From positions 186,001 to 250,000 of the forward strand of contig NZ_RSCL01000001.1 of the NCBI RefSeq assembly GCF_003991905.1: a DNA stretch of 64,000 nt. The letters run 5' to 3'. The position numbers and the translations under genes were made by a program. Positions 7,117 through 31,751 of this stretch are shown in pieces. The DNA comes from Dulcicalothrix desertica PCC 7102 (lineage in GTDB: Bacteria > Cyanobacteriota > Cyanobacteriia > Cyanobacteriales > Nostocaceae). The notes below the pieces were generated by a model. That model was not told the origin of the DNA and did no database searches. It saw only the letters and a program-made list of their open reading frames with translations. How positions within the stretch are numbered: the stretch's first letter is position 1; every line of letters begins with the position of its first letter.

Positions 7117-7510
7117 ATGTTTTAATATTGTTAATTAACTTGCGGTTCTTCAATCGAAACAGTTCTACTTCACATATCAGGGGTAAAACTATTAATTTAT
7201 GCACTGTCTTACAAATGTACTATTTCGTGCAAATGTTCACCATCACTACCTTAGAACTGCATAAATAAAAACACAAAAAATTTTAGGTGAATTTAGGAAT
7301 AATTTATTTTTCTTACTTGTTGTAGAAAGTGGGAGCGAACAGCAGTATTGCCAGAATACCAGTGCAATCCTTTATGGCACCTGGATTGTTACATTTGTCT
7401 TGTACTAATGAAGCAGAAAAGCTGGAGATAGCCCATATCTGGAATGATAAAGCTAAATATTGTAGTTAAATACTATGGATAGAAAACGAAAAATATAGCC
7501 GGATATAGCG
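7117..7510. other. Divergent intergenic region
   Basis: About 390 bases between the divergent bicupin and DUF928 genes. The sequence is AT-rich and should hold both promoters. No gene, RNA or repeat was recognised. Confidence 0.4.
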
Positions 7511-8350: not shown

Positions 8351-10971
8351 AGCCAGTTTCCCACTAAAATGAATGAAGCCCAATAATAAGGACGATTATA
8401 ATCTCGGCTTGAAGATTCTTTCAAAAACTTAATTTGAGCGTTTCTTAAAGCTTCTGCTTTTGTGACTTGTCCGAGATTGAGTTGTTGGTAAAATTCAATC
8501 ATAAATTCTGCGGTAGATGCATCGTTAATTTGCCATAACGAAGCTAGGGTAGTACGGGCGCCTGCTCGAATTGCTACTCCTGCTAGTCCTAATGCTGCCC
8601 GCTTGTCTCCACTTGCTGTTTCGCAAGCACTAAGAATTAGTAATTCAATTGGCTTGGCACTTCTTTGGTAATCTAAACGCAGTAAGTTATCTAAATCTTT
8701 AACTTTTATACGTCCATTCCAATCTAAAATATAAGTTTGTTCAGGATTGGAGCTAAATTTACCGTGAGTTGCCAAGTGGACAACATTGAAATTTGTTGTA
8801 TTAATCTTGGCTTGCACGTTATTTTTAATGAATTGTTGATTTTCTAGTGTCTGATTGCGTTGTACCTTCTGCTTAATTCCTGCTAATTCTAATTCAACAT
8901 TATCAATTACTCCTAATCCTTCTTTTTTAAAGCTAGGAGCATCACTGGCGCCTGCAATTAACACATTGACGTTTGAGCTTTGTAATGGTTTAGCTTCGAG
9001 TAATTGTAAAGTCTGAGTAACGCTTACAGCATATCTTTCGACCAAATATTTGTCTCCGTCATAAAGAACAGCCATTGGAATATTTCGTAATGAACCATCT
9101 AAAACAAATACTAATGTTTTAATCTGACTTTGTTCTCGTGTAGTTGTGGCGCCAAGTTCAGCCGCAAAAGGTTTAATTAACCAGTTATATAATTGTTGTG
9201 CTTCTGCTTTGACTTGTTTTAAACTCGTGCTAGGTCGTGTTAGAGACTTTTGCAGTTGTGTTACTGCTGCATCAACTTCTTGCTCCGAGACATTTACATG
9301 AGCATAATGACGTAAATTATCTGAACCTGGTAATTTGAGTATTACCTCCAAACGGTTTTGTAAGACAATTGGATAAATAACAGCAGCATTTGAGTCTAAA
9401 TTGTCAATATTTACTTGTTTTGGTTTGGCACAAGCATCTCCAAAAAAGTTATCTAATTCTGCTAGTTGTAGCGCTTCCATTACCTGACGCGCTTGGATGA
9501 GATTACTTTTACTGGGGGAGCGCAAAAGCAATTCGACTAATTGCCGATACACTGGTTCTACACTTTCTCGGAAGGAAAACTGAACTTCTGGACTAAGAGC
9601 AATTAAATCACTGCGTAAACTACTGAGGTTATTAAATGCTTGAGTATAATATTGAATTGCTTGAAAGTTGGCGCCTTGTTGTGTTTCTGCTTGTTTTTGA
9701 AACAATCTTCCCATTTGCCACTGCCACAGGTAGCTAATATCTGGTGCATTTATACCCTGTGCCAGAGATAGTGCAGTAGTAGTAATTTTTTTTGCATTCG
9801 ACCAATCTTTGCTGCTTTCGTATAATGTGCCAAGAGTGCCAAGTGCATAAGATTCCGCACGCTGGTCTTGCAAAGTTCGAGATTGATTAATAGCTGTTTC
9901 TAATACCTGAATAATATTTTGAGAATTATCTCTTTCTTCCATCTTCATTAAACTTTGAGCAAAGTTGACGCGCGCGTAGATGGATACTCGACTTGCTGGT
10001 AATTGACTAATTGAAGCATTAACTTGATTTATTAATGGCGAAATAGATGTAAGCTCACTAGTATTAATTAACACTGCAATTTGATTGAGTTGCGCTTGAA
10101 TTTTGGTAATAGGCAAAGCTGCAAGTGCTGCGGATTTTTGATAATATTCTAAACCTTTTTGTCTGTGCTTTTGTGTGTTATCTGTATCTTTTAATGCTTC
10201 CGCTCTGTTAGCAAAAGCTATTTCAACATTTCCTAAATTGAGCAAAGCTGTACTTTGTTCTTGGGGTAAATTCAATTTTTGGGCAACACCTAAAGCAAGA
10301 GTCAAAATTTCAGTCGATTTTTCTAAATCTCCATCAAATCGGCGAATATTACCAAGATTCAGTAAACCAGATACTTTTAAGGAAGAGTCTGATTGTTCAT
10401 ATAATTGTTGCTCGGCTTGAGTTAATAATTTCTCCGCTCTACGGTAAAGCCCCAAACTTTGCAACGAATTAGCTTGATTTATCTGACTACCAACAACACT
10501 AACAGTATCACCAGAAGAAGCATAAAATTTTTGTGCCAACGTAAAGCTTGTGAATGCTGCTTCAGTTTGTCCTTGTGCTAACTGCCAATGTCCCTGACTG
10601 TTAAGAACTTGCGCGCGCACTTTATATGACTCTCGCTCAGATGGTAATTTATCTAGTAAATCTAAACTTGTGTCAATTGCTGCCTTTGCTTGCTGCCATT
10701 GTCCAAGTTTTTGCTTAACTAAAGATAATAAACTTAATACCTGAGCTTGATTAAGTTTGTTTCCCGAAGCTTGATAAATACTAACTGCCTTTTCTAACGA
10801 CTGCGCTGCTGCAAAAAATTGTCCAGCATCATAATATTTTTTACCAGACTGCACTAAAGTTAAAGCTGGCGCCAAGTTACTTTGTGGTAATGCAACTGGA
10901 ATTAATGGAATAACCAAGCTGAATATTAGTGCAAAAATACTCAACAAAATCAAGTTTAGCAGGCGCCTCAT
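8347..10971 (-). CDS. CHAT domain protease-like protein with TPR repeats
   Basis: An 874-residue protein with an N-terminal hydrophobic segment (about residues 5-28) that should direct it to the envelope. Tetratricopeptide repeats follow over about residues 35-430 (e.g. GKYYDAGQFFAAAQSLEKAV), and the C-terminal third is a CHAT (caspase-HetF-associated with TPRs) domain. The catalytic pair is present: His in HLATHGKF (about residue 735) and Cys in LSACETA (about 781). CHAT proteins are caspase-superfamily peptidases. The gene starts 3 bases after the haemagglutinin-like gene on the same strand, a coupled arrangement common in cyanobacteria, which suggests processing or sensing of that exoprotein. 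The substrate is not known. Confidence 0.92.
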   Translation of the reverse strand: MRRLLNLILLSIFALIFSLVIPLIPVALPQSNLAPALTLVQSGKKYYDAGQFFAAAQSLEKAVSIYQASGNKLNQAQVLSLLSLVKQKLGQWQQAKAAIDTSLDLLDKLPSERESYKVRAQVLNSQGHWQLAQGQTEAAFTSFTLAQKFYASSGDTVSVVGSQINQANSLQSLGLYRRAEKLLTQAEQQLYEQSDSSLKVSGLLNLGNIRRFDGDLEKSTEILTLALGVAQKLNLPQEQSTALLNLGNVEIAFANRAEALKDTDNTQKHRQKGLEYYQKSAALAALPITKIQAQLNQIAVLINTSELTSISPLINQVNASISQLPASRVSIYARVNFAQSLMKMEERDNSQNIIQVLETAINQSRTLQDQRAESYALGTLGTLYESSKDWSNAKKITTTALSLAQGINAPDISYLWQWQMGRLFQKQAETQQGANFQAIQYYTQAFNNLSSLRSDLIALSPEVQFSFRESVEPVYRQLVELLLRSPSKSNLIQARQVMEALQLAELDNFFGDACAKPKQVNIDNLDSNAAVIYPIVLQNRLEVILKLPGSDNLRHYAHVNVSEQEVDAAVTQLQKSLTRPSTSLKQVKAEAQQLYNWLIKPFAAELGATTTREQSQIKTLVFVLDGSLRNIPMAVLYDGDKYLVERYAVSVTQTLQLLEAKPLQSSNVNVLIAGASDAPSFKKEGLGVIDNVELELAGIKQKVQRNQTLENQQFIKNNVQAKINTTNFNVVHLATHGKFSSNPEQTYILDWNGRIKVKDLDNLLRLDYQRSAKPIELLILSACETASGDKRAALGLAGVAIRAGARTTLASLWQINDASTAEFMIEFYQQLNLGQVTKAEALRNAQIKFLKESSSRDYNRPYYWASFILVGNWL

Positions 10972-11618: not shown

Positions 11619-14600
11619 CTATATCACCACCATCTCCTCCTGAAGAGTTAGTTCAGCGTTGGTGGAGATTTTACCACCACGACGCAGTAGTAATAGTTCT
11701 TGCATTTTAAGGGTGATACTACCCCCAGTGTTGCTAGCGGTTTCGGCAAAAATAGCAGCTTGATTGTCTAAGGTGAGGGCGCCTGCTTCAATTTGAATAT
11801 CACCACCCTTTCCGCTACCTTGGCTATCTACAGCAATACGGGCGCCATCTCGTAAAATGATGCTTCTAGGGTCGATAAAGATATTACCACCATTGCCAGT
11901 AGAGCCTGTTTGGGTGTTGGCAAACAACCCACTATTTACTCCAGCTATAAGTATGCTGTCCCTAACGTTCAAAGTGATGTCGCCAGCTTTATTAACGCCT
12001 GTGGTACTAGTGCGGAATTTACCTCCATTAATAGTCTCTAAGCGATTCGCAGTGATTGAAATGTTACCACCAGCACCATTATTGGTGGCGCTGGAGATAG
12101 TAGCTCCATCCCGGATAATGAGTGTTGGACTATTAACGGTAATATTTCCCGCTTTTCCCGTGCCTCTAGTCGCAGTAAATAAACCACTTGGAAATCTACG
12201 AATTGCTGTAGTTCCAATTAATTGAACTGATTCTGATGCATTTACTATTAAATCTCCACCCGAACCTGTACTACGGATATCGGTACCAGCATCAATCTGC
12301 GCTCCATCTTGGAGAATAAGAATTGGGGTATTGATAGTCAACGTTTGTGCTTTTCCAGTACCTTGAGTTTGGGTAAACAAACCAGTTATACTCTGTTCAT
12401 TGGGATTATTTATTACTTGTATTGATTCAGTGGCGTTTACCGTTAACTTGCCACCGCTTCCCTCGTTTGTAGTGGCACTAGAAATAATTCCACCATCTTG
12501 AATCATCAATTTATTAGTATCAATATTTATATTTCCTGCGTTGCCTTTATTAATGGTTTCTGCTGCAATTCTTGCTTGTTTTTGGATAGTTAGGTTGGGG
12601 GTGTTAAGGGTGATGCTTCCTGCATTACCTGTACTCAAAGCTTGAGAAGATAATCCACTACCTATACCTTCAAGCAGCACCGACTCTGAAGCTTTTATTG
12701 TTAATTTTCCTCCCTGACCTCCACCAATAGTACTAGTTGAAACTTGAGCGCCGTTCTTAACTATCAGTACCGGAGTATCAACAATCAAGTCTCCGGCTTT
12801 GCCTACATTGTAAGTACTAGCAAAAAAACCAGTAGTTTGTTTGCCATCATCTGAAGTTCCATTCAATTGCACTTGTTTTGAAGCATTTACAGCTAAACGT
12901 CCTCCATTCCCACTGCCAACAGTTAAAGTAGAAATCTGCGCTCCCTTGTCAGCAAATAAATAACCAGTATTAATTGTCAGGTTGCCTGCATCACCTTTAC
13001 TAGCGGTTCCTGCAAAAATATCCGCCCCTTCAACTCGTAACAGTGGTGTGTTAATTGTTAATTCTCCCCCTTTACCTGTTGCGTAGGCGCCAGCAGTCAA
13101 CTCACTCACATTACCCGAAGCTGAAGCCCCGCGTACATGTACTGATTCCGTGGCGTTTACAATTAAACTTCCGGCATCGCCATCACTATTAGCAGTAGCA
13201 GCAATTTCTGCACCATCTTGGACAAGCAGTTTTCCTGTATTGATTATCAGGTCTCCCCCCTTGCCTTTCCCATTTGTGTTGGCTGCTAAAATACTTTCAG
13301 AGGAGCCACTAACTTCTACCAATTCAGATGCGTTGATAGTTAACTTTCCTCCATTGCCATTTCCAAACGTCGAAACCCCGACCTGTCCCCCATCCTGCAC
13401 TAATAATCGTTTGGTAGTAACAGCCAATTCTCCGCCATCTCCAGTTGAACCCCTCCGAGTTTGAGCAAATAAATCACTACCAAATTCGCGACTTTTAGTG
13501 AAACCACTTACTTTGACTTCTGATGCTGTTACCCTCAAATTTCCCGCTTTTCCTGAACCAGCAGTAGTAGTGGAAACCCTGGCGCCCTCTAAAATGCGAA
13601 ACACGGGAGCAGTAATTGTTAAGTTTCCGGCATTACCTGTTCCTGTAGTGCGTGCAACCAACTCGCTACGTTGACCAGTCGCAGATTCTCCAACTACTTC
13701 TAATATTTCTGAAGCATCTATGTTCAACTCTCCACCAACTAGCGACCCTAAAGTATTGGCTTCAATTCGCGAACCATCACTAACTGTCACATGTTTTCCA
13801 AAAACCCTAATATTACCCCCTCCTTGGTTACTAGTGCTGACAGATGCTCCGTTACGAAGGGATATATCTGCTCGTTCTATTTTTTCAGGATTGATACTCG
13901 GTTTGTTGTCATTGAAAGTTAATCCTAACCTTCCCACTGTCACACCTGCTAATTCGACTTGACCCCCTAATGCGTGAAGACCTCCGGAATCAACGACAAT
14001 TTTTCCCCCCAGTAGTAACAAGCTTTTGCCATCTGGTACTCGTAAGCCAAATAAAGGAGTTCCTGCTACGTTTAACCCTGCTTCCACCCTAGAGCGATTT
14101 TCGATTTGTTTATTATTTATCTGGTTAAAGAATAATGCATCCGGATTGACTGTTAGTAGCGCAGGGCTAGAAGGATTAGCTGCACTGAAAAAGCCTTGCT
14201 CGCCAAACTGAATTGCATTTGCCGTACTAGCAACAAATGAACCCCCAATATCCAAACGTGCATTTTGTCCAAAAATTATCCCATTGGGATTGAGTATAAA
14301 TAAATTGGCATTACCTTTTACACCTACAGTTCCCAAAATATTCGATTGGTTATTACCTGTAACTCTACCCAGAATATTATTTATACCAGGAGGATTTGAG
14401 AAATATACTCGTTGTCCATCTTGGATATTAAATTCACTAAAGCTGTGAAAAATGTTACTGCCTCGAATGGCGCCACCATCAATTTGGTCAGCAGTCGCAC
14501 CTTTGATATTTACATTCGGGGTAATTAGTGTACGTTCGGCGCCTAAAGTTTCATCTGGAATAATTTGAGCAAGGACATTATTGCAAGAAAATGTAATCGC

Positions 14601-14672
14601 CAATCCTCCGAAAAATGCGAATTTAGCTACGCGAACTGCATGTAATAAAAAATTAACTTTGCTGGTTTTCAT
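11619..14672 (-). CDS. Filamentous haemagglutinin-like (TPS-domain) exoprotein, main part
   Basis: 1017 residues. A signal peptide (residues 1-35, ending VLAQ) precedes a two-partner-secretion (TPS) haemagglutinin N-terminal domain (about 38-270; IIPDETLGAERT, GANLFHSF-like GSNIFHSF, NANLFILNPNGIIFG). A long beta-helix of imperfect repeats then follows (G-G-x-L-x-I-N-x-x-x-L-x-V-x-x-G-A-x-I). Such proteins are exported by TpsB/Omp85 transporters and sit on or leave the cell surface. The frame ends abruptly (ELTLQEEMVVI) where relatives continue SGGDGG; that continuation lies in the adjacent frame. The full gene would be 10975-14672, about 1230 residues. It heads an operon with the CHAT gene. 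Confidence 0.88.
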   Translation of the reverse strand: MKTSKVNFLLHAVRVAKFAFFGGLAITFSCNNVLAQIIPDETLGAERTLITPNVNIKGATADQIDGGAIRGSNIFHSFSEFNIQDGQRVYFSNPPGINNILGRVTGNNQSNILGTVGVKGNANLFILNPNGIIFGQNARLDIGGSFVASTANAIQFGEQGFFSAANPSSPALLTVNPDALFFNQINNKQIENRSRVEAGLNVAGTPLFGLRVPDGKSLLLLGGKIVVDSGGLHALGGQVELAGVTVGRLGLTFNDNKPSINPEKIERADISLRNGASVSTSNQGGGNIRVFGKHVTVSDGSRIEANTLGSLVGGELNIDASEILEVVGESATGQRSELVARTTGTGNAGNLTITAPVFRILEGARVSTTTAGSGKAGNLRVTASEVKVSGFTKSREFGSDLFAQTRRGSTGDGGELAVTTKRLLVQDGGQVGVSTFGNGNGGKLTINASELVEVSGSSESILAANTNGKGKGGDLIINTGKLLVQDGAEIAATANSDGDAGSLIVNATESVHVRGASASGNVSELTAGAYATGKGGELTINTPLLRVEGADIFAGTASKGDAGNLTINTGYLFADKGAQISTLTVGSGNGGRLAVNASKQVQLNGTSDDGKQTTGFFASTYNVGKAGDLIVDTPVLIVKNGAQVSTSTIGGGQGGKLTIKASESVLLEGIGSGLSSQALSTGNAGSITLNTPNLTIQKQARIAAETINKGNAGNINIDTNKLMIQDGGIISSATTNEGSGGKLTVNATESIQVINNPNEQSITGLFTQTQGTGKAQTLTINTPILILQDGAQIDAGTDIRSTGSGGDLIVNASESVQLIGTTAIRRFPSGLFTATRGTGKAGNITVNSPTLIIRDGATISSATNNGAGGNISITANRLETINGGKFRTSTTGVNKAGDITLNVRDSILIAGVNSGLFANTQTGSTGNGGNIFIDPRSIILRDGARIAVDSQGSGKGGDIQIEAGALTLDNQAAIFAETASNTGGSITLKMQELLLLRRGGKISTNAELTLQEEMVVI

Positions 14673-15725: not shown

Positions 15726-18029
15726 TTAATGAGTTTTGTCAAATATCTTGTATTTATATATGACCAAAAGACTTTTAACAGCTATCAATGCTAAAGCTGA
15801 AGGAACTAGGGGTATCCAACCTCCTTTTAAAATTAGTAATCCCCCACAAGTTAGATACAAGGCGCCATTTTCAATTCCTGCTCCTAGTAATATTAAATGT
15901 GGTGACATTAAACGCCAAGCTAGTACACCTCCTACTAATGACCAACTAAAAATCCATATAGTTTCTATTGGTTTTGGCAAAGACCAAATTAACGGTCGTT
16001 TATCAAGTACTGTACTGAGAATATGACTAACCATGTGTGCTTGAATTTCTACACCTGCTAGAGTTTCTTCTGTTAAATCGCCACTACTATAAGGTGTGCG
16101 CCACTGATAATCTCCAAAGCTAGGGTCTGTCGTGCCAATAAGTACTATACGATTTTTGGCTCTTTCTACATCAAACTGATTGCTGAGAATATCTCGAAGA
16201 GTTACTTTTTCGGCAATTTCTGATGACGCGCGATAGTTAAGTAATATTTGATGACCACTAGCGTTGATTTTGCGATAGCCACTGGTATTCTCTTCTAAAG
16301 GTTTAAATGTTACTTCGCCAAGTTTTAAGTAATTATCTGGTGTAAATTCTTGTTTAATTCCAGAAGAAGCTAAATAATGGGTCGCAAGTTTCCAACTAAA
16401 CGAGTATTTGCTTTGACAAGGAGATGCAGAATCCACAGCTAATATTTGGCGCCGCAAAATTCCATCGGGGTCGCGTTCTACATTATTAAATCCTTGACCA
16501 CGTTTAGGAACATATGAAGGTGGTTTGATACCTGGTTTACCATATAAGCAAATTGCAAAGAAGTTATTGCGTTTTATTTTTTGGGCTAGGGTTGGGTATT
16601 TTTCTCCTACACCTGTTTCTCTATATATATCTAAACCAATAGCTCGCGGTTGAGACTGTTCTAGTTTTGATAGTAATTGTGCTAAAGAACGCTCTGATAT
16701 AGATGCTGCTCCTCGCTCTATAACGGGTTGAGACTGAACGTCTTCGTCTGTAATGGTAACTATTAATAACCGCTTATCTACTCCTTCATAAGGGCGCCAG
16801 CGCATTAGTTGGTCGTAAGCTTGAAGTTCCCATGCTTGTAAAAAACCAAGCGCTCTAACAAAAGTAATTATACTGGTAACAGCAACACTTGTTAAAGCAA
16901 CTTGCCAAAATGGTATAGTATTGGTGTTGTGCTGTTTATCTAAATGTTTGTTAAGCCACTTTAAATCAAAAACAGCTTGATAAATAGGGTTTTTAATAAC
17001 TAAATTTTCATTGTACTTATGTACTAAACCAGAAAGACGTAATTCTAATTGCTCGTTAGAATTATTTGCAGGTATTTTTCCCTTCTGCAAAATTTGTTTA
17101 TACAGTAATAGCAAGCGTTGTGTGGAGCGCGCGTTTCTAAGAATGCGGTCACGAACTGTACGTAAATGCTCTGGTTCATCTTGAGATTCCCAATTTTCTA
17201 TAATTTGCTTTTTGACTAATTGATTTATTGACTGGGGTGTTTGCAGTTTAGATTGCTGGGAAATAAGTAAACAAAGCTTTTGGGTTAAAAACGGTTGTCC
17301 AGAAGTCCAGTACAGTACTCGTTTTAAAGCTGCTTCTGGGTTGCTGGTTTTTTCAAGCAAACCTTGCATAAAAATGTTACTTTCGTGCAGTTGAAAGCCT
17401 TTTAATTCAATGGCTCTACCGATATTAAAGGGAGTGGCATTTTCATCTTGTATCAAATCAGCAGGTGTTGCTACACCCAATAGTGCAAAAGAAAGTCTTC
17501 GATATTCTGTTTTGCTAGCTCTTTTATCGTAGCAGTTGCGGATTAAAGCAAAAAACTCATCTGTGGCAAAGCTTAAACTCAGAACGCTGTCAATTTCATC
17601 AATAAAGATAACTATATTTTGTTTAAGTTGCGTCAGTAATACCTTTTCAATAAACTCCCCTAAACGTTGCACTGGCGAAAGGTCTTCTTGTTGGCGCCAC
17701 CAACTACGACGGTCTATTTTTAGCTCAAAACCGCTTATTAATTCTTGAATAATACCCCCATACCATTGGGAAGCAGTAATTTCTTGGCTTCCAATTCCAC
17801 TTAATTCAATTTCAACACAGGCGATGTCTTGTGCTTGTAGCTTGTACATTGTACGAATGCGTAAGCTTGATTTGCCCATTTGCCGGGAATTAAGGACATA
17901 GCAATATTCGCCTGCTAACAAAGCATTGTAAAGTTCATGGTCTGCTGCACGAACAATGTAAGTAGGAGCGTCAGCAGGTAGGCTTCCTCCGGCTTGATAT
18001 TTGTAGTTGGAGTTAAAATCAGCCCTCAT
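15726..18029 (-). CDS. AAA-like ATPase (AAA_35) fused to CHASE2 sensor domain
   Basis: 767 residues. The N-terminal ~370 residues form an AAA-like STAND-type ATPase with phosphate-binding RQMGKSSL (about residues 49-56) and acidic [13 protein letters not shown], followed by a winged-helix-like region. A membrane segment (about 378-396) leads into an extracytoplasmic CHASE2 domain (about 400-680; [39 protein letters not shown]), and two or three membrane helices end the protein (about 700-760). Unlike most CHASE2 proteins there is no downstream kinase or cyclase, so the output is probably the N-terminal ATPase. It is convergent with the glycosyltransferase; function unknown. Confidence 0.88.
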
Positions 18030-18276
18030 CTTCGATTCCCCACAAAGGCTTTATTTTTACCAAATTATATATCGTTTCAGCCCACTGGCGATATTTTCAG
18101 TGTCTTACCTGAATTTTACTGAATTTCACAGAATTACTGCTTTGTAAATCTAATTTGATACTCCTAAATTTAACTAAACACTTCAAGAATGTCTTCAAAC
18201 ATACTATTAATAGAAAGCAACATTAAAGCTTTCTTTCCCAACAATTAACACAAATCAAAAATTAAGGACTTTCTTT

Positions 18277-18693
18277 ATGTCACTTTCTACTTCTAACATT
18301 ACTAGCGTCGAACAAGAACTGTTTACCGAATTAACTGCTGAAGAAGCATCTGTAATTGAAGGAGGCGCCTACCTAATTTTACATAATGCAACTGCTGTTA
18401 AAGCAGGCGCCGACTTTGGACCAAGTAACGGAGACGACCTTAAGGTTAAAGTTAACGGCAGACAAGTCTTTGGAACTCTTGACGACGTAGATACTGGCGA
18501 AACTGCTCGTATTAACAAACGAGTATACTTCAATGGAACCGCCAAGGTTAATCTTTTTGACGGCGACCCCTGGCCCAACGATGACGACTATATGGGAGGT
18601 TTTACTGTAGGAAGCACACCAACTAACGGTACAAGAACAATGCGAGTTAGGGGTTCTGGTTCTACTTACGATGTAACTTACAGCATTGTGTAG
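18277..18693 (+). CDS. Double-glycine-leader secreted protein, probable substrate of the adjacent C39 exporter
   Basis: 138 residues with an AAGG-type ribosome-binding site (near 18264) upstream of the ATG. The first 30 residues are a typical double-glycine leader: acidic, with LFTELTAEEASVIEGG followed by AYLILHN, so cleavage after G30 would release a ~108-residue protein. The mature part is acidic and beta-rich with Gly/Asp repeats (SNGDDLKVKVNGRQVFG, VNLFDGDPWPNDDDYMGG, a GSGSTYDVTY end); the aspartate clusters are reminiscent of calcium-binding C2-like beta-sandwiches, which is inference. It is much larger than usual bacteriocins and lacks a Cys-rich core. The exporter with its C39 peptidase lies 130 bases downstream on the same strand. 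Confidence 0.8.
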   Translation: MSLSTSNITSVEQELFTELTAEEASVIEGGAYLILHNATAVKAGADFGPSNGDDLKVKVNGRQVFGTLDDVDTGETARINKRVYFNGTAKVNLFDGDPWPNDDDYMGGFTVGSTPTNGTRTMRVRGSGSTYDVTYSIV

Positions 18694-18699
18694 TCCTAA

Positions 18700-18766
18700 A
18701 AAAACCAGGTTTCTCTACGAAAATTTAGCTTTGTTAGCATAGCTTATCATCAGAAACCGGGTTTCT
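18700..18766. repeat. 67-bp paired AGAAACC palindrome unit
   Basis: Palindromes at 18700-18714 (AAAAACCAGGTTTCT) and 18752-18766 (AGAAACCGGGTTTCT) with an AT-rich spacer. It lies just after the stop of the GG-leader protein and before the exporter, so its hairpins could attenuate transcription between substrate and transporter. Confidence 0.75.
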
Positions 18767-18787
18767 TGTTTAGTGTTGTTTAGAGGT

Positions 18788-18812
18788 GGGGTTGGGTGTT
18801 AACCCAACCTAC
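18788..18812. repeat. GGTTGGGT/ACCCAACC hairpin repeat
   Basis: GTTGGGT (18791-18797) faces ACCCAAC (18802-18808) with a 4-base loop, followed by CTAC. It belongs to the (G)TAGGTTGGGT family. It ends about 10 bases before the exporter start codon, and the upstream in-frame GTG/ATG-like extension of the exporter is encoded by it. Confidence 0.65.
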
Positions 18813-18821
18813 TATTTAATT

Positions 18822-21014
18822 ATGAAATATCAGATTGTTCTTCAACATAGCGAGGAAGACTGCGGTGCTGCTTGCCTTGCAACTATTGCTAAACACTATG
18901 GACGCACTTTTGCGATTAACCGTGCGCGTGAAGCGGTTGGTACAGGTTCGCGAGGTACCAGTTTGCTGGGGTTAAAACGAGGAGCAGAAACGTTAGGTTT
19001 CCATGCACGCTACTGTAAAGGTACTCCTCAGTTACTTGAACGACTCTCGGAAATTCCTTTGCCTGCGACTATTCACTGGAAGGGCTATCACTGGGTTGTT
19101 TTATACGGTAAGAAGGGGAATAAATACGTAATAGGCGACCCTGCCGTTGGTCTACGGTATTTAACCAGTAAAGAATTAGTCGCTGGTTGGATGAATGGTG
19201 TGATGTTGTTATTAGAACCTGATGATAGCCGTTTTTACTTACAAGAGTCTGATAAAATAGGCGGTTTTGGGCGTTATATTCAACGGGTTTTACCTTATCG
19301 CTTAATTCTTGCTCAAGCTATTGCGATTAATTTATTTATTGGACTATTATCGCTTGCCTCTCCCTTTATGATGCAACTGCTCACTGATGATGTATTGGTG
19401 CGGGGAGATACTCAGTTGCTAACTACTGTGGCAATTGGGGTAATTGTCATGAATTTGGTTAGAAGTGCTATCGGTTTAGTACAGTCAAACTTAATAGGTC
19501 ACTTTGCACAAAAGTTACAGTTAGGACTAATTTTAGAATATGGTCAAAAATTACTACATTTACCGCTATCTTATTTTGAAGGGCGCCGTAGTGGAGAAGT
19601 AGTTAGTCGCATTTCTGATGTTAATGCTATCAATGCCTTAGTTTCCCAAATTGTCCTTGGTTTACCTAGTCAATTTTTTATTGCTCTGGTTTCCTTAAGT
19701 TTAATGCTGGTTTACAGTTGGGAACTAACTTGCGCTTCAATTGTTGTTTTTATCGTCGTTACGGGAATTAATTTACTTTTTTTGCCAGCATTACGTAATA
19801 AAAGCCGTAATCTCTTGGTACTGGGCACAGAAAATCAGGGTTTTCTCGTTGAAACCTTTCGGGGTGTTCAGGTGCTAAAAACAACACAAGCTACTCCTCA
19901 AGCTTGGGAAGAGTATCAAAACAATTTCGGGCGCCTAGCTAATTTGGGTTGGAGTCGGATGCAACTAAGTTTATATAGCGGTACGTTTACGGGTATTATT
20001 TCAACTTTAACTAATATTGGTTTACTTTGGTTAGGTAGCAGTTTAGTAATTAATCAAACTTTAAGCATTGGGCAATTGCTGATGTTTAATGGCATGAGCG
20101 GTAACTTTCTGGGTTTTTTGAGTTCGGTTATTGGGTTAGCTGATGAATTTATCACTGCTCAAATAGTAATTCAACGCTTGACAGAAGTTATTGACGCAAC
20201 TCCAGAAGACGAGAATGATTTTAAAAAGCCTTGGGCAGAAATTCCTGGTAATGCCGATATTAATTGTAATAACCTTAATTTCCACCATGCAGGTAGGGTT
20301 GACTTACTAGAAGATTTTTCTCTTACTATCCCTGGTGGTAAAGTAATTGCTTTAATTGGTAAATCTGGTTGCGGTAAAAGTACCCTTGCTAAACTGCTTG
20401 CTGGTTTATATGAGTCACAATCAGGTAATATTCGTTATGGTCTTTATAATCAGCAAGACCTTTCTTTAGACTGTTTGCGTTCCTCAGTTGTATTAGTTCC
20501 TCAAGAACCGCACTTCTGGAGTCGCTCTATAGTTGATAATTTCCGCTTTAGCTATCCTAATATTAGCTTTGAACAAATTGTCAAAGCCTGTCAAATCGCT
20601 GGTGCAGATGATTTTATTAGTAAATTACCTGATAAATATCAAACTGTGTTAGGTGAATTTGGCGCCAACCTTTCCGGTGGACAGCGACAAAGGTTAGCCA
20701 TTGCCAGAGCTATAGTTACAGACCCACCTATATTAATATTAGACGAATCTACAGGCGCCCTTGACCCAGTTAGTGAAGCGGAAGTATTAGACAAACTACT
20801 GTATTACCGTCAGGGTAAAACCACAATCATGATTAGTCACCGTCCCAAAGTCATCCAGCGTGCGGATGTAATTGTACTACTAGAACAAGGGCGCCTGAAA
20901 ATTCAAGGTAGTCCAGAACAACTACGCGCTCTCCCAGGTACACACTTAGATTTTTTAGAAGACTTTCTCCCCCCATCTCACTATGCTTACACACGAAGCT
21001 TCAATCCCTGTTGA
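18822..21014 (+). CDS. Peptidase-containing ABC exporter (C39 bacteriocin-processing type)
   Basis: 730 residues from the ATG at 18822; upstream codons are repeat-derived. The N-terminal C39 peptidase (about 1-130) retains the Cys-His-Asp set: C14 in EEDCGAACL, H90 in GYHWVVLYG, D106 in IGDPAVG. A six-helix transmembrane domain (about 155-430) follows, then an ATPase (about 480-710) with Walker A IGKSGCGKSTLAK, signature LSGGQRQRLAIARAI, Walker B ILILDESTGALD and the MISHR switch. Such PCATs cut double-glycine leaders and export the cargo. It overlaps the HlyD-type gene by 32 bases, and the GG-leader protein just upstream is the obvious substrate. Confidence 0.95.
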   Translation: MKYQIVLQHSEEDCGAACLATIAKHYGRTFAINRAREAVGTGSRGTSLLGLKRGAETLGFHARYCKGTPQLLERLSEIPLPATIHWKGYHWVVLYGKKGNKYVIGDPAVGLRYLTSKELVAGWMNGVMLLLEPDDSRFYLQESDKIGGFGRYIQRVLPYRLILAQAIAINLFIGLLSLASPFMMQLLTDDVLVRGDTQLLTTVAIGVIVMNLVRSAIGLVQSNLIGHFAQKLQLGLILEYGQKLLHLPLSYFEGRRSGEVVSRISDVNAINALVSQIVLGLPSQFFIALVSLSLMLVYSWELTCASIVVFIVVTGINLLFLPALRNKSRNLLVLGTENQGFLVETFRGVQVLKTTQATPQAWEEYQNNFGRLANLGWSRMQLSLYSGTFTGIISTLTNIGLLWLGSSLVINQTLSIGQLLMFNGMSGNFLGFLSSVIGLADEFITAQIVIQRLTEVIDATPEDENDFKKPWAEIPGNADINCNNLNFHHAGRVDLLEDFSLTIPGGKVIALIGKSGCGKSTLAKLLAGLYESQSGNIRYGLYNQQDLSLDCLRSSVVLVPQEPHFWSRSIVDNFRFSYPNISFEQIVKACQIAGADDFISKLPDKYQTVLGEFGANLSGGQRQRLAIARAIVTDPPILILDESTGALDPVSEAEVLDKLLYYRQGKTTIMISHRPKVIQRADVIVLLEQGRLKIQGSPEQLRALPGTHLDFLEDFLPPSHYAYTRSFNPC

Positions 21015-22476
21015 ACAAAATTTTCTACCCCCAATTAAACGCTGGACTCAGTTTGGTGGAATTTTTATCCTTACTGTATTGAGTCTAACTATTCCCATAG
21101 CTTCCTTTGCCAAATATAAAGTTACCGTCAAAGCACAAGCAACTATCCGTCCTGCTGGAGAATTACGAATCGTTCAGTCAGCAACCGAGGGTCAAGTAAT
21201 GCATATCTCCGTCCAAGAAAACCAAATAGTCAAAAAAGGAGATATCATTGCCACTATTGACGACTCGCGTCTGCAAACTAAAAAAAGTCAACTACAAAGC
21301 AATCTTCAACAAAGCAAATTACAACTCGTCCAAATTAATGCCCAAATAAATGCAATGGGTAATCAAATTCGCGCCGAAACAGAGCGCATAACCCGCACTA
21401 TTGCCTCAGCAGAAGCCGAATTAAGCGGTCGTACCCGTGAGTTTAGAGATAAAAACTTGACGACAGTTGCAGAAGTCCAAGAAGCTGATGCCAATATAGG
21501 AATCGCTCGAGAAGAACTACATAAAGGTTACGCTGATTTAAAATCGGTACATTCAACCTTTTATGCAACTCAAGCTATTTTAGCAGCAGCACGAACAAAA
21601 CGAGAAAGATACGAAAGTGTAGCTAAAGAAGGAGCTATTTCCAAGAATCAATTAGAAGAAACACAGTTAGCAGTCTCGCAACAAGAACAAGCAGTAGAAG
21701 CGCAAAAAGCATTAATAGAATCACAAAAACAAACAATTAAACGCTTAGAACAAGCAGTCTTAGCAGCACGTGCTAGAAAACAACGCGCACAAGCTATATT
21801 AAATCCAAGTAATTCAGAAGTAGGAATAGCACAACAACGTATAGCTCAAGAAAAAGCAACACTCAAAGCTAACTTTGCAGCACTAAGCAAAGAAAGACAA
21901 GCTCTTATTCATCAAAAAATTGATATTCAAAAACAACTCGAACGAGATAGTCGTGAGTTAATACAAGTAGAAACCGATATTAAACAAACAGTTATAGCGG
22001 CGCCAGCAGACGGTACTATATTCAAACTAGTTCTACGAAATTCTACCCAAACAGTACGAGCAGGTGAAGAAATTGCTCATATTGCACCCAACAACAGCAA
22101 CGTAGTAGTAAAAGCTATCGTTGACTCCCAAGATGTAAGCAAAGTCAAAATAGGACAAAAAGTCAACTTACGAGTATCAGCTTGTCCTTACCCAGACTAC
22201 GGAACACTTAATGGTAAAGTCAAAGCCATATCTCCAGATGCCATTACCCCCCAAGCTAATGGTACACAAACAGGCGCCATTGCCACAACTCAAAAACCCG
22301 GTGTAGGCGCCACATTCTACGAAGTAACAGTAGAACCAAACAGCCTCATCCTAGGCAAAGGCAAAAACAAATGTTCCATCCAACTAGGCATGGAAGGCAG
22401 AGCAGATATTATCTCCAGAGAAGACAATGCACTCCAATTCTTCCTAAGAAAAGCAAAACTAATCACAGACATCTAA
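20983..22476 (+). CDS. HlyD-family membrane fusion protein
   Basis: 497 residues. One N-terminal membrane helix (about 24-43) is followed by a lipoyl/beta-barrel half (TIRPAGELRIVQSATEGQV, VKKGDIIATID), a long alpha-hairpin rich in Gln/Glu/Lys (about 95-335), the second lipoyl half (IAAPADGTIFKL) and a C-terminal beta-barrel with VGATFYEVTVEP. This is the periplasmic adaptor that links an ABC exporter to an outer-membrane channel. The overlapping start with the C39 ABC exporter indicates translational coupling. No TolC-like gene is in the window, so a channel encoded elsewhere is probably used. The stop codon abuts a MITE-like element. Confidence 0.94.
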   Translation: MLTHEASIPVEQNFLPPIKRWTQFGGIFILTVLSLTIPIASFAKYKVTVKAQATIRPAGELRIVQSATEGQVMHISVQENQIVKKGDIIATIDDSRLQTKKSQLQSNLQQSKLQLVQINAQINAMGNQIRAETERITRTIASAEAELSGRTREFRDKNLTTVAEVQEADANIGIAREELHKGYADLKSVHSTFYATQAILAAARTKRERYESVAKEGAISKNQLEETQLAVSQQEQAVEAQKALIESQKQTIKRLEQAVLAARARKQRAQAILNPSNSEVGIAQQRIAQEKATLKANFAALSKERQALIHQKIDIQKQLERDSRELIQVETDIKQTVIAAPADGTIFKLVLRNSTQTVRAGEEIAHIAPNNSNVVVKAIVDSQDVSKVKIGQKVNLRVSACPYPDYGTLNGKVKAISPDAITPQANGTQTGAIATTQKPGVGATFYEVTVEPNSLILGKGKNKCSIQLGMEGRADIISREDNALQFFLRKAKLITDI

Positions 22477-22941: not shown

Positions 22942-23208
22942 TTGACAACATTCAAAGTTTTATCAAAGCTCCTCCTTGGAAGAGATGTTGTGCATGTTGA
23001 CGGAAGACGAGGAAAAGTCTTCTTAATAAATCCTATAGGTTTACAGATAGGTTTAGAGTTAACAACTAAAAAAATAAACAATTTTAAATGTCAAGATAAT
23101 TCTACACGAGAATTATATAGTACAAAATATTTAAATAAAATATATCCACCTCTTTTACATGAAGCAGCAAAAATACTTGGTACCGTACTTTTGGAAACAA
23201 CGCGGTGA
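22942..23208 (+). CDS. Possible small protein, unknown
   Basis: An 88-residue frame from a TTG codon (the frame is open back to about 22906). The central part (GRDVVHVDGRRGKVFLINP) looks protein-like, but the start is weak, there is no clear ribosome-binding site, and I do not recognise a family. It overlaps the start of a second small frame (23159-23320). The stretch may be a decayed gene. Confidence 0.25.
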   Translation: MTTFKVLSKLLLGRDVVHVDGRRGKVFLINPIGLQIGLELTTKKINNFKCQDNSTRELYSTKYLNKIYPPLLHEAAKILGTVLLETTR

Positions 23209-23320: not shown

Positions 23321-23355
23321 AGTTTATTTGAAAAACTCCCACAGTGAGGAAAACA

Positions 23356-23877
23356 ATGTTAAGTGATATTGAGTTTCAGGAATTAGCCGAGGATTTGTCA
23401 AGTCCTGACGTATCAATACGTGTTGATACGTTAAAATGCTTATATAGACAGCCTGTTCTTGATGAGCGGGTATTACCATACTTGGAAGATTTGTTAGATG
23501 ATGACACAATATCCGTTATATTTCTGCCCTACCGTTTTGGAGAAGTTAGGTGGTTAGCAGCTAAGGTATTGGTCGCAGAGCGCGCAGCACTTGGACATAG
23601 CCAGCCTGTATATTTAGATAACGTTTTTCAACCAATTAATACAGAAGAGTTTGCATCGTTGGCAAGGAGTGCCGGAGTAAAAAGTTCGGGTGGTCTTGAC
23701 GGTATACTTGAAGCTCTTGTTGTTCTTCGTCAAATGAAACGATTACCATTACATACCTTACAACTTATACCGAGCAGTAGAAATAATCAAAATATAAAAA
23801 TGAACGATTTAAATTCTATCAGCGACAAATCTGATAGTCAGGTAACAGAAACCATTGCTGGACAAAGAATCAAATAA
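23356..23877 (+). CDS. HEAT-repeat-like protein of unknown function
   Basis: 173 residues from the ATG at 23356, chosen because GAGGA ends 5 bases upstream; the GTG at 23344 would place that site inside the gene. Residues ~1-70 resemble one or two HEAT/armadillo repeats (LAEDLSSPDVSIRVDTLKCL, VLPYLEDLLDD, EVRWLAAKVLVAERA), and the C terminus is polar. It is probably a protein-interaction module. It is convergent with the VMAP-type AAA gene. Confidence 0.55.
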   Translation: MLSDIEFQELAEDLSSPDVSIRVDTLKCLYRQPVLDERVLPYLEDLLDDDTISVIFLPYRFGEVRWLAAKVLVAERAALGHSQPVYLDNVFQPINTEEFASLARSAGVKSSGGLDGILEALVVLRQMKRLPLHTLQLIPSSRNNQNIKMNDLNSISDKSDSQVTETIAGQRIK

Positions 23878-23935: not shown

Positions 23936-25264
23936 TTATTCTAGTAAATGCGCTTGAAAATACTGGCGATATAAATTACACCTTGGCTCTACTAAATTAC
24001 CAGAAAGTTTAACTAGACCTATGCTTTGTAATTGATAAGCTAACACTGGTTCTAATTGCACGGGATGTGTAGAATTATTAACTTTAGTAAAGGCTTTTGC
24101 TAATTCAGGATGTTGTTGTAAATTTAACCAATGTTCACGTAAATGATGAGCGTAAATACCAGTTTCTGTAGTTCCTTCCATCAAGATTTGCTCTAGGGTA
24201 ATATCTGGATAATTTTTAAGGTGAGAAAAAGCCATTTCTAATAAATGAGGATGTCCCCCAACTAAGTTTATAAGCGAGTCTATTAAAGTCGCATCTAAAT
24301 TAAGTCCATGTTGCTGGGCAAAATCTTGCACTTGCTCGCGCGTAAATTCAGACAATTCTAACGGTAGTCCAACATTAAATGGTGATTGATTAATATTTAA
24401 TCGGATATAAACATTAGTAGAATGTATTAGTACCAACCGCAACTTTGCCCAAATTTTTCTGGTTCTTGCTTTCTCATACCAGGAGCGTAACAGTCCAAAA
24501 AAATCTTCATAAATTTCTGGATAAGGAAAAAGTAAATCTACATTATCTAAGCACAAAATCAAGGGACTATCGGTAGCAGCTAACAAATATTCTTCAAAGT
24601 AGGTCGTGCAACTGACCTTTGCTCCCATACCTTCTTCATCCCAATATTCATCTAACTCGCTTTTGTATGATAACTCTCGACTCACATTAGTACAAAACCA
24701 ACGTAAGAATTTATTCAGGTTAGTAAAATGGGTGTTTCTATCTGCTAGCTCAAAACTTAATATTACGCTGCGAAAGTCTTGTTTCGATAATTTTGTAATT
24801 ACATTAATCATCAGTGACGTTTTCCCCATTAAACTCGGTGCTTTAATACGGATTAAAGAACCAGGTTGTAAAAGAGTTTCGTAACAAATCGATTCTATCG
24901 GATGTCTTTCAACATAAATTTCAGGAATTATATTTTTTAATTGTTCTTGCTCTATATCTAAGTCAATACCTAAAGCATTTGTATTAGTGCTTAATTTCTC
25001 CCATCTTCGCTTTAATGCTTCTTTGAAACTATTTTTTTTGACTTTTTCTCCCAATGAATCAGAAAGTAGTTTCCAGAGCTTCGGCGCCACATCTTGACTA
25101 ATATAAGTAGTAGCATACTGATGTTTAGCAGCTATTTGATCATATTCTTGCCGTTCCCAGGCGCCTTTGAGAATGATAATCTCTATATCTGTTAAATTTC
25201 TCTTAAATTTTTGATTAACTGCTTGATTAGCAACCTGAATTGCCTCATTTAAGTTGAAATCCAT
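23936..25264 (-). CDS. VMAP-type HTH domain plus AAA-like ATPase
   Basis: 442 residues. The N-terminal ~85 residues (FKRNLTDIEIIILKGAWERQEYDQIA...YISQDVAPKLW) match the helix-turn-helix domain of cyanobacterial vWA-MoxR-associated (VMAP) proteins. Residues ~110-440 form an AAA_35-like ATPase with LMGKTSLM as phosphate loop, LILCLDNVDLLF as Walker B, and a winged-helix end (GLVKLSGNLVEPRCNLYRQYF). VMAP proteins belong to proposed conflict/signalling ternary systems, but no vWA or MoxR partner is next door and there is no effector domain. Function is unproven. Confidence 0.8.
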   Translation of the reverse strand: MDFNLNEAIQVANQAVNQKFKRNLTDIEIIILKGAWERQEYDQIAAKHQYATTYISQDVAPKLWKLLSDSLGEKVKKNSFKEALKRRWEKLSTNTNALGIDLDIEQEQLKNIIPEIYVERHPIESICYETLLQPGSLIRIKAPSLMGKTSLMINVITKLSKQDFRSVILSFELADRNTHFTNLNKFLRWFCTNVSRELSYKSELDEYWDEEGMGAKVSCTTYFEEYLLAATDSPLILCLDNVDLLFPYPEIYEDFFGLLRSWYEKARTRKIWAKLRLVLIHSTNVYIRLNINQSPFNVGLPLELSEFTREQVQDFAQQHGLNLDATLIDSLINLVGGHPHLLEMAFSHLKNYPDITLEQILMEGTTETGIYAHHLREHWLNLQQHPELAKAFTKVNNSTHPVQLEPVLAYQLQSIGLVKLSGNLVEPRCNLYRQYFQAHLLE

Positions 25265-29226: not shown

Positions 29227-29426
29227 AAACTCTTAACCTTATTAATGACCACATTTGGATATTATTTTGCTCAATATTATAGGCGCCAATCTTGCTAAAA
29301 CGTACTCGACTTTAGTATAGGATGGCATTATAAAAATTGTTGCAAAATAGTTCTACTTTGTATATGGGGGCGAAATTATTAATTTATGCACTCCAACCAA
29401 CAATCGATACTTTTATTACTGCAACT

Positions 29427-31751
29427 ATGATGAAACATTTGTTCTGGGCATTCGTAATTGGTATTAATGGTACAATAGTTTTTACTGGATATTCGGCTGT
29501 AGCCCAAATTACACCGGATAGCACTTTACCCAATAACTCTAATGTCAAATTAGAAAATAATACCTTAAATATTACAGGTGGCACACAAGCAGGCGCCAAT
29601 TTATTCCACAGCTTTCAAGAGTTTTCTGTTACAACAGGCAATACGGCTCATTTTCAAAATAACCCAGACATTCAAAATATTATCAGTCGGGTAACAGGTA
29701 GTAATATCTCTAATATAAATGGTTTAATCAAAGCGAACGGTGCAGCAAACCTATTCTTAATTAATCATAAAGGAATTATATTTGGTGAGAATGCAAAACT
29801 AGAAATTGGCGGTTCTTTTACTGCCACCGCAGCTAGTGGTGTTAAATTTGGCGACTCGTTAGAATTTAGTGCTAAAAACCCGTTGGCGACACCGTTACTT
29901 AGTGTTAATGTACCAATAGGATTACAATATGGAAGTAATCCAGGCGATATTGAAGTCAAATTAGCGAATTTACAAGTAAATCCTGGTAAAACTCTAACAC
30001 TAACTGGCGCTTCGGTTAATATCAATGGTGGAAAATTGCTGGCGCCGTCTGGACGTGTCGAGTTAGGAGATACGGCGGCACAAACAAATGTATTGCTAAG
30101 TAATTTTGCAGAAGTGAACGTACTTGGAGATAATGGAGGTAGTATTGCTATTAATGCTCGTTCTGTGGAATTAGCAGGGCAAAGTACTCTTCAAGCTGGT
30201 ATAGGACAAGGGTTAGGGTCTGTTGACAGTAAAGCATTCAATATTGATATTAATGCAATTAAAGATGTTTATTTAAAAGACGGAAGTAGAGTTCGCAACA
30301 CTGTGGAACCCGACGCAACGGGACAAGCTGGTGATATAAACATTAATACTGGTGGTTCGCTTTATGTAAAAAGCGCCGCCTTAATAAGTGCCAGTATTTA
30401 TGGAAAAGGTTTGGCTGGCAACATTAGAATAAATGCTCTTGGTACTGTTTCATTTGATGGAGGGAATAATACATCTGCGACTACAGTGGGAAGCGGTATT
30501 AATCTTGAAGGTATAGGCTCAGGAGGTGATACAAACATTACTGCTGATTCATTCTCTGTTACTAATGGCGCCGCATTAACTTCTTTTGCTTTAGGTTCCG
30601 GCAATGCTGGCAATATTACTATTAACGCCAAAAATGATGTTTTGTTGAGTAATGTTGCCAGAAGAGAAAGATTTTCAAACGCAAGTGGAATTTATACCAG
30701 TATTGCTTCACCTACTTCTGTTGGTAATGGGGGTGATATTAACATCAGAGCGGCTAGCCTCGAAGTTAGCAAAGGCGCCCGCTTATCTGCAAGAACATTC
30801 GGTCAGGGGGATGCTGGAAATATTAATATCAATGTTCGCAAGGGCATTTTATTTGATGGAGTTGGTCTTCGAGGACCGAGTGGCGCCTTTACTAGCGTCG
30901 AACCTACAGGTATAGGTAATGCTGGTAATGTAAATATTACATCTCAAACGCTAAGAGTTATGAATGGCGCCCAATTGTTTAGCAGTAGTAAAGGTAAAGG
31001 AGCAGCAGGAAATTTAGGCATAAATGCTGACTTTATTCGTTTAGATAATCAAGGAGCGATTACATCTGACACCGTTGGTGGTCGCGGTAATATTGATTTG
31101 AATGCAAAGGATTTAATATTGCATCGAAATAGTAATATTACTACTAATGCCACAGGAAGTAATAATATCGGTGGTAATATTAAAATTAATACAATTAATC
31201 TAGTTGGTATTCCTGAAGATAATAGCGATATTAGCGCTAATTCTATAGATTTTCGCGGTGGAAATGTGACTATTAATACTACAGGGTTATTTGGACTACA
31301 ATTCCGTGATGCACCCACTAATATGAGCGATATCACTGCGAGTGGCGCCAATTCTCAGTTGAATGGTACTGTACGAATTAATCGACCAGAAGTAGACCCA
31401 ACATCCGGGTTAATTGAATTACCTGTTAATATTGTTGACCATAGTTACCTAATTGCTCAAAGTTGTCCCGTTAAACGAGGTAATACATTTATAATTACTG
31501 GACGTGGGGGTTTACCAGTCTCACCGAATGCAATGCTTCGCAATAATCAAACAGCAAGTATTGATTGGGTGACAACTAATGACTTAGTATCGAATCAGAA
31601 AGATACTAATTATAAAGAGCAATTAATAAAACCTGAAATTAGCGAAGCTGATAATTGGGTAATTAGCAATTCTGGTGAAGTAATGTTAATTGCTTCTGCA
31701 TCAAAAGACATACATGGGCATTTCATCAGTTCCGCAGTTTGTCCGTTATAA
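29427..31751 (+). CDS. Second filamentous haemagglutinin-like (TPS-domain) exoprotein
   Basis: 774 residues from the ATG at 29427 (29430 is equally possible), which places a good signal peptide at the N terminus (MKHLFWAFVIGINGTIVF, cleavage near AVAQ). A TPS domain (about 28-250) has ITPDSTLPNNS, GANLFHSFQEFSV, VTGSN and NLFLINHKGIIFGENAKLEIGG; note NHKG in place of the usual NPNG. A shorter beta-helix follows, then the conserved ending (DPTSGLIELP, AQSCPVKRGNTFIITGRGGLP, ADNWVISNSGEVML, final SAVCPL). It is intact, unlike the paralogue at 10975-14672. No TpsB transporter gene is nearby, and it converges on the WD40 gene. Confidence 0.9.
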   Translation: MMKHLFWAFVIGINGTIVFTGYSAVAQITPDSTLPNNSNVKLENNTLNITGGTQAGANLFHSFQEFSVTTGNTAHFQNNPDIQNIISRVTGSNISNINGLIKANGAANLFLINHKGIIFGENAKLEIGGSFTATAASGVKFGDSLEFSAKNPLATPLLSVNVPIGLQYGSNPGDIEVKLANLQVNPGKTLTLTGASVNINGGKLLAPSGRVELGDTAAQTNVLLSNFAEVNVLGDNGGSIAINARSVELAGQSTLQAGIGQGLGSVDSKAFNIDINAIKDVYLKDGSRVRNTVEPDATGQAGDININTGGSLYVKSAALISASIYGKGLAGNIRINALGTVSFDGGNNTSATTVGSGINLEGIGSGGDTNITADSFSVTNGAALTSFALGSGNAGNITINAKNDVLLSNVARRERFSNASGIYTSIASPTSVGNGGDINIRAASLEVSKGARLSARTFGQGDAGNININVRKGILFDGVGLRGPSGAFTSVEPTGIGNAGNVNITSQTLRVMNGAQLFSSSKGKGAAGNLGINADFIRLDNQGAITSDTVGGRGNIDLNAKDLILHRNSNITTNATGSNNIGGNIKINTINLVGIPEDNSDISANSIDFRGGNVTINTTGLFGLQFRDAPTNMSDITASGANSQLNGTVRINRPEVDPTSGLIELPVNIVDHSYLIAQSCPVKRGNTFIITGRGGLPVSPNAMLRNNQTASIDWVTTNDLVSNQKDTNYKEQLIKPEISEADNWVISNSGEVMLIASASKDIHGHFISSAVCPL

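Follow-up and report, generated by a model that had tools for sequence, protein, structure and literature searches.

A candidate C2-domain cargo with a double-glycine leader beside a C39-peptidase exporter in the cyanobacterium Dulcicalothrix desertica

Three genes form a cassette within a 64,000-nucleotide stretch of the Dulcicalothrix desertica PCC 7102 genome (GCF_003991905.1, contig NZ_RSCL01000001.1, positions 186,001 to 250,000; the whole stretch is hereafter called the window). They lie in the order small double-glycine protein (the cargo), C39-peptidase ATP-binding cassette (ABC) exporter, and HlyD-type adaptor, the last overlapping the end of the exporter open reading frame (ORF) at 21014 (Table 1). 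The exporter is a peptidase-containing ABC transporter (PCAT): Peptidase_C39, ABC_membrane, and ABC_tran all exceed their Pfam cut-offs in one protein, as does HlyD_3 in the adaptor, and the sequence, read by eye, retains the peptidase residues Cys (in DCGAAC), His, and Asp, in agreement with an earlier note on this DNA that had described an exporter with these residues intact and an overlapping adaptor. Its start is probably the ATG at 18822 (730 aa), the start site of congeneric homologues, and not the GTG at 18786 given in the ORF list. The protein is of the short type, without an N-terminal extension, and the 18-kb gene map contains no further ABC gene. The named relatives found are Calothrix sp. 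PCC 7103 (cargo 96% identical) and Calothrix sp. HK-06 (93%), and the ratio of nonsynonymous to synonymous substitution rates between the cargo genes of four congeners is 0.12–0.26; the cargo is therefore a genuine, constrained coding gene.

Table 1. Features of the cassette and of the neighboring genes, in window coordinates
Feature	Position	Strand	Basis
Cargo, 138 aa	18277-18693	+	ORF list
Double-glycine leader, cargo residues 1-30	18277..18366	+	G29 and G30 invariant in 20 aligned leader-bearing homologues
Mature core, residues 31-138, very probable C2 fold	18367..18690	+	AlphaFold core model, Foldseek, VIA-align, profile match to C2 chains, column counts
C39-peptidase ABC exporter (PCAT, short type), 730 aa	18822..21014	+	Pfam over cut-off; beside 13/15 leader-bearing C2 loci
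HlyD-type membrane-fusion adaptor, overlapping the exporter gene	20983..22476	+	Pfam over cut-off
Upstream block in common with the cargo gene of L051 (other genus), probable promoter/5' region	18146..18233	+	blastn, 91 columns, 78%
AAA_35 protein, possible conserved partner of the exporter type	23936..25264	-	Pfam; orthologues beside cassettes in genera g1, g19, g10
CHASE2-AAA_35 protein, divergent from the cargo; membership only possible	15726..18029	-	Pfam; same place in the three congeners seen

The leader that the earlier note had assigned to the 138-residue protein, with cleavage expected after G30, was confirmed by comparison with its homologues (Table 1). It agrees with the PCAT substrate consensus quoted in PMC12184118 at positions −12 (L19), −8 (E23), −2, and −1 (G29 and G30), and departs from it at −4 (Ile for Val) and −7 (Ala for Leu). 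A leader-pattern scan of the window returned the cargo and four other short ORFs, and those four do not look like leaders; the earlier note had named this gene as the only candidate cargo in the window. The host genome (11.4 Mb) has 19 C39 matches, and 22 OEP matches elsewhere in it provide candidates for an outer-membrane channel. Elsewhere it carries another cassette, whose cargo is 36% identical to the first and is again accompanied by an exporter and a HlyD adaptor, and a leader-only search of the genome recovered both cassette cargos together with one weak match within a 1053-aa frame. A further C39 locus of the same genome (L081, 856-11043) combines a HlyD gene and two ABC genes with five small double-glycine ORFs whose leaders and ends (RRF..NDLD) are alike, and resembles a published three-gene export cassette.

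Evidence that this protein is a substrate of its neighbor comes from its homologues, whose co-occurrence with exporters the earlier note had proposed to examine. With the window included, a C39 exporter adjoins 13 of 15 leader-bearing C2 loci, as against none of the 14 fetched stretches with leaderless C2 loci; these counts come from related genomes and are not independent of each other. A HlyD gene lies near 12 of those 13 exporters, and the contig of the 13th (L045) ends after the exporter. The weak matches L062 and L067, which the profile missed, were left out, whereas other weak matches were kept, and the fetched stretches cut by contig ends include L045, L047, L053, L054, and L068. Two leader-bearing loci, L046 and L050, have no exporter nearby and weigh against the association. 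Homologues that lack the leader, which the earlier note had held would speak against its reading, do exist, but they form a second branch, and none of its 14 loci has a C39 exporter nearby. That leader and exporter belong together is thus well supported by gene neighborhoods, and export of the cargo by the adjacent exporter is highly likely. As a separate observation, an intact C2 cargo in L045 is preceded by a leaderless 61-aa C2 core fragment (3754-3939), which may be what is left of a core that was replaced. The cargo search of 198 related genomes gave matches in 21, of which 12 have a leader-bearing gene, and 157 genomes were without any match. In an even sample of the phylum, scored for up to 12 candidates per genome, the C2-type domain was found in 12 of 386 genomes, nine of them in the family of the window (its own genome included). 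No relative of the queries was found in viral contigs (first scan: one leader pattern) or in plasmids.

The C2-like fold that the earlier note had suggested for residues 31-138 was borne out by structure prediction. The best AlphaFold model of the core, built from three close sequences, has a predicted local distance difference test score (pLDDT) of 81 and a predicted template modeling score of 0.77, and the predicted chain forms the eight-stranded sandwich of C2 domains. Nearly all of the 50 Foldseek rows listed for this model were C2 domains or C2-containing proteins, with a best E of 5.2e-4 and six matches at or below 0.001, and VIA-align gave Z scores up to 10.8 and a root-mean-square deviation of 2.3 over 101 residues (SMURF1 C2). 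Independently of the model, a profile of 16 core sequences searched against Protein Data Bank (PDB) chains matched the otoferlin C2 domain at E 4.2e-7, with extended synaptotagmin-2, Piccolo, and others among the weaker rows; 12 of the 14 PDB rows up to E 10 are C2-containing proteins. Several results count against this assignment. The remaining four of the five core models reached pLDDT values of only 58–69, and the model of the full-length precursor was poor (54). The Pfam C2 cut-off (PF00168) was not reached, with one of 16 members matched at E 0.19. A viral fold library returned nothing at E ≤0.001, and PHROGs gave a weak match to one unnamed family (E 5e-4). On balance, the fold reading is well supported by sequence, and the mature core very probably adopts a C2 fold. 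Loop 1 of the predicted core is located between the first two strands, an arrangement that we interpret as type II C2 topology. The core was also said to be acidic; it is, but merely mildly so, with 12 Asp and one Glu against 11 Lys/Arg (counted by eye), and it has no Cys.

Other members of the C2 family show different architectures. The leaderless members of L096 (1279-1782) and L100 (1267-1770) carry a long, hydrophobic, Gly/Ala-rich insertion ahead of a conserved DE motif, which resembles a membrane hairpin placed in loop 1. In L068 (567-1913), L101 (547-2055), and L065 (6117-7430), a C2-family domain is followed by repeats resembling a lectin-type propeller, with the repeat W..LGG...DVF.RG.D.ALWH in L068 and L101; the L065 protein opens with a signal-peptide-like stretch.

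By our reading, the calcium positions expected in the core are D46, D53/D54, D95, D97, and D103/D104. In an alignment of 16 cores that omits the branch L048-L050, positions 46, 53, 95, 97, 103, and 104 are acidic in 14–16 sequences, whereas the other Asp positions 69, 70, 72, and 102 are acidic in just 3–4. The alignment of 20 leader-bearing rows, which includes this branch, has positions 53 and 95 acidic in all 20 and positions 69, 70, 72, and 102 acidic in 6–8. Its other columns tell against the calcium reading: 15 of the 20 rows have an acid at positions 97, 103, and 104 and 13 have one at position 46, where the other seven have gaps, and the branch L048-L050 has lost most of the loop-3 acids. 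Given these patterns, we consider it reasonably likely that the mature core binds calcium.

The earlier note had called the exporter dedicated to its cargo. This was not sustained, because close exporters elsewhere adjoin beta-gamma-crystallin and two other cargo classes. Exporter relatives at E ≤1e-200 occur in 137 of the 198 genomes (up to five candidates scored per genome). Among the matches listed, 45 exporters are at least 75% identical to that of the window, and 39 of these (9 C2 cassettes and 30 others) were examined, the remaining six lying outside this set. Near each of the 39 lies a cargo that bears a leader and falls into class C2, B, C, or D; since these very loci served to define classes B, C, and D, the result means that a few kinds of cargo recur, not that a prior prediction was met. 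None of the four classes was found with nine fetched exporters at 64–73% identity. The value of 75% is nevertheless no sharp border, because four C2 cassettes found through their cargo have exporters at 66–69%. Class D is beta-gamma-crystallin: eight of 10 scanned proteins exceed the Pfam Crystall cut-off, and a ninth exceeds that of Inhibitor_I36, a family with a related fold. Three crystallin-like proteins of L131 pass neither cut-off singly, but when four proteins of that locus were combined into a profile, it matched Protein S of Myxococcus at E 0.0097. Classes B and C belong to no named family, and their best PDB matches are weak (class B, a lipoprotein at E 0.027 and then nanobodies; class C, L,D-transpeptidases at E 0.0057). 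Some cassettes hold two classes, namely C2 and B in L044, C2 and C in L045 and L047, and B and D in L104, L106, L112, L116, and L123. Mapping the C2 label onto a tree of 52 exporters requires six changes, and well-supported branches force five of these; here "C2" stands for any C2 cargo in the cassette and "other" was assigned before class D had been recognized. Judged by these neighborhoods, exporters of this type lack specificity for C2 cargo.

Cargo genes of different core class can nonetheless begin with nearly the same DNA. At least 60 nt of promoter-leader DNA is shared at 85% identity or more by 27 gene pairs of different core class; the pairs come from 12 loci and are not 27 separate events. 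One example joins congeneric species: the cargo gene of L044 encodes a C2 core and that of L107 a crystallin, yet their promoter and leader DNA is 94.5% identical over 200 nt. The exporter-HlyD stretches of the two loci are 82% identical over 3.6 kb, whereas the cores between them fail to align. Near-identical promoter-leader DNA before different cores indicates that cores have been exchanged behind a common start. On these DNA comparisons, the cores of the relatives are exchangeable modules behind a common promoter-leader, but this was not seen for the window's own cargo gene, which is in none of the 27 pairs. The upstream block that the window has in common with L051 lies just upstream of the cargo in both, and the cargo genes themselves gave no blastn match. 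L051 also carries six tandem C2 cargo genes (7044-10152) of two strictly alternating types, with 395–396 of 396 nt identical within a type and 372–373 between types; the array may reflect recent amplification in pairs or an assembly effect.

How might such a cassette work? PCATs remove the leader and export the remainder (PMC6959990). Judging by the motif, the gene linkage, and this family behavior, the C39 peptidase would bind the leader and cut after G30, and the exporter, the HlyD adaptor, and an outer-membrane channel encoded elsewhere would pass the chain out largely unfolded, because a domain that had already folded would be unlikely to get through. Outside, the Asp-rich loops may bind Ca2+, which would help the domain to fold and remain there. 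The same exporter branch also goes with beta-gamma-crystallin, a second family known for calcium binding, and one branch with two calcium-binding fold families suggests calcium-assisted folding outside, as for RTX proteins; classes B and C, which have no known calcium link, weigh against it. The folded domain might then serve as a binding protein that depends on calcium and acts on the cell surface, the sheath, or the matrix, which is the weakest step and which we put forward tentatively. Among the functions guessed earlier, that of a matrix or surface protein fits best, and by analogy the polymerization of Protein S with calcium on spores (PMC10574481) and the EbfG matrix proteins described below suggest a structural role. 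The whole account, that of a short-type cyanobacterial PCAT system whose single C2-domain cargo is exported unfolded, cleaved, and folded by calcium outside for a surface or matrix role, we regard as possible, a little short of an even chance.

Its main competitor would make the cargo a protein bacteriocin, a domain that folds and is then directed against rival organisms, for example against their membranes, with core exchange reflecting an arms race as in polymorphic toxins. C2 domains often bind membranes, exchange of cores behind a common leader, as in the 27 promoter-leader pairs, is also a feature of competition systems, and C39 exporters of the same type have been described in bacteriocin clusters (PMC3140520). 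Against this, gene maps limited to ORFs of at least 80 aa, which a shorter or distant gene would escape, showed no recognizable immunity gene separating the cargo from the exporter, and the near-identical tandem copies of L051 fit dosage as well as diversification; we consider a toxin unlikely. That the cargo is a calcium-independent C2-fold protein with a surface or signaling role, its Asp loops serving another purpose, is quite unlikely in our view. Many C2 domains do not bind calcium, and the branch L048-L050 keeps the leader, and in L048 and L049 also the exporter, despite its loss of most loop-3 acids, but outside this branch the acidic positions persist where neighboring Asp positions vary.

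Two further explanations are weaker still. That the cargo gene is not a substrate of the adjacent exporter, the two being chance neighbors, would accommodate L046 and L050 but sits badly with the linkage counts, which extend across several genera, and is very improbable. Even less can be said for a ribosomally synthesized and post-translationally modified peptide (RiPP) whose core would be trimmed or modified: some cyanobacterial C39 clusters do encode modifying enzymes (PMC3140520), but the core here is a whole domain without Cys and, as the earlier note had stated, no modification enzyme accompanies it, no usual RiPP enzyme being among the neighbors in a Pfam scan of the neighborhood rather than of the whole genome; we regard this as extremely improbable.

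A broader, somewhat unlikely extension of the calcium-folding account is that these cyanobacterial PCATs, as a branch, export small calcium-folding domains in general, C2 and beta-gamma-crystallin among them. Such domains would stay unfolded in the calcium-poor cytosol and lock into shape outside, while recombination would swap whole folds behind a constant promoter-leader. If true, an RTX-like principle would operate with a cleaved N-terminal leader, and related strains would send different surface or matrix proteins through the same machine. The questions raised are whether calcium-driven folding serves PCAT export as it does in RTX proteins, and whether core exchange is a way in which filamentous cyanobacteria vary their surface or matrix proteins.

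The scanned neighbors of the cassette encode a glycosyltransferase, AAA_35 and CHASE2 proteins, a Crp-type regulator, a cupin, and a GDSL lipase. With 54 AAA_35 matches in the genome, chance neighbors are expected, and the case for the AAA_35 protein downstream as a partner therefore rests on orthology. Its orthologues are 65–83% identical over the aligned part (other matches, at most 54%). In genera g1 and g19 they adjoin C2 cassettes, and in genome G015 the neighbor is the crystallin cassette L131; the protein could be a regulator. Specificity for C2 cargo was rejected, as the G015 orthologue adjoins a crystallin cassette, and adjacency is not universal: the orthologue lies about 18 kb from the exporter in G054 and on another contig in G076. 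The orthologue beside the G006 cassette (L070, 813-2200) is split by a TGA stop. Two small ORFs without a Pfam match (22942-23208 and 23344-23877) lie between the HlyD and AAA_35 genes of the window, and parts of large two-partner-secretion (TPS)-type exoprotein genes flank the cassette on both sides (12001-14672 and 29337-30002); TPS exoprotein genes are found near several cassettes and have 47 matches in this genome.

Among known systems, the closest are the group III cyanobacterial "bacteriocin" clusters (Wang et al., 2011; PMC3140520), which are described as having a short-type C39 exporter, a HlyD gene, and a double-glycine precursor. The window cassette resembles them in the short-type exporter with HlyD, with no peptidase-free partner ABC gene adjacent, in the adjoining precursor, and in size range. 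The earlier note's "unusually large" does not hold for the cargo, because the published precursors span 28–164 aa across all groups (290 precursors; 29–129 aa in group III), although it exceeds the longest group III entry by 9 aa (PMC3140520). The group III cores are reported there as diverse, little conserved, and often rich in Gly, Cys, Ser, and Thr, whereas the window core is a conserved, probable C2 fold; the main text of that paper mentions no crystallin, C2 domain, or calcium. EbfG1-4 of Synechococcus elongatus (PMC4997328, PMC9981879) are likewise cyanobacterial double-glycine proteins with a C39 exporter, PteB, whose C39 Cys is required for efficient secretion. They are needed for biofilm, EbfG4 being found on the cell surface and in the matrix and EbfG1-3 being amyloid-prone; unlike the window cargo, they are described as 9–10-kDa precursors (6–7 kDa when mature) without homologues in other cyanobacteria. 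MAM of Faecalibacterium duncaniae (PMC12184118) is also a double-glycine protein of about 135 aa beside a PCAT, located on the cell envelope, but it has a three-helix core, belongs to a different phylum, and its PCAT processing rests on modeling.

The type II C2 domains of PKC epsilon, cPLA2, and perforin have the same fold as the predicted window core, but they are eukaryotic and intracellular or within larger proteins, whereas the window core stands alone behind an export leader. The RTX proteins of type I secretion are alike only in the proposed logic of unfolded export and calcium-driven folding outside. They carry nonapeptide repeats that bind Ca2+ and a C-terminal signal that is not cleaved; the window cargo has an N-terminal leader, predicted to be cleaved, and a probable C2 fold, and neither a Pfam RTX match nor such repeats were seen in its sequence. 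Open-access titles and the openings of abstracts, a coverage that leaves out most subscription papers, reported no C2 or beta-gamma-crystallin PCAT cargo. The machinery is thus already known, whereas the cargo fold and the core exchange seem new; double-glycine clusters have mostly been mined for antibiotic peptides, and here an exporter branch goes with conserved whole domains. C2 domains are called typically not found in prokaryotes in a paper on Synechococcus nitric oxide synthase (PMC12922734), whose own cyanobacterial C2 domain is described as an intracellular regulatory enzyme domain that lacks the usual Asp yet binds Ca2+; to this fold, the present family adds free-standing, probably secreted C2 domains.

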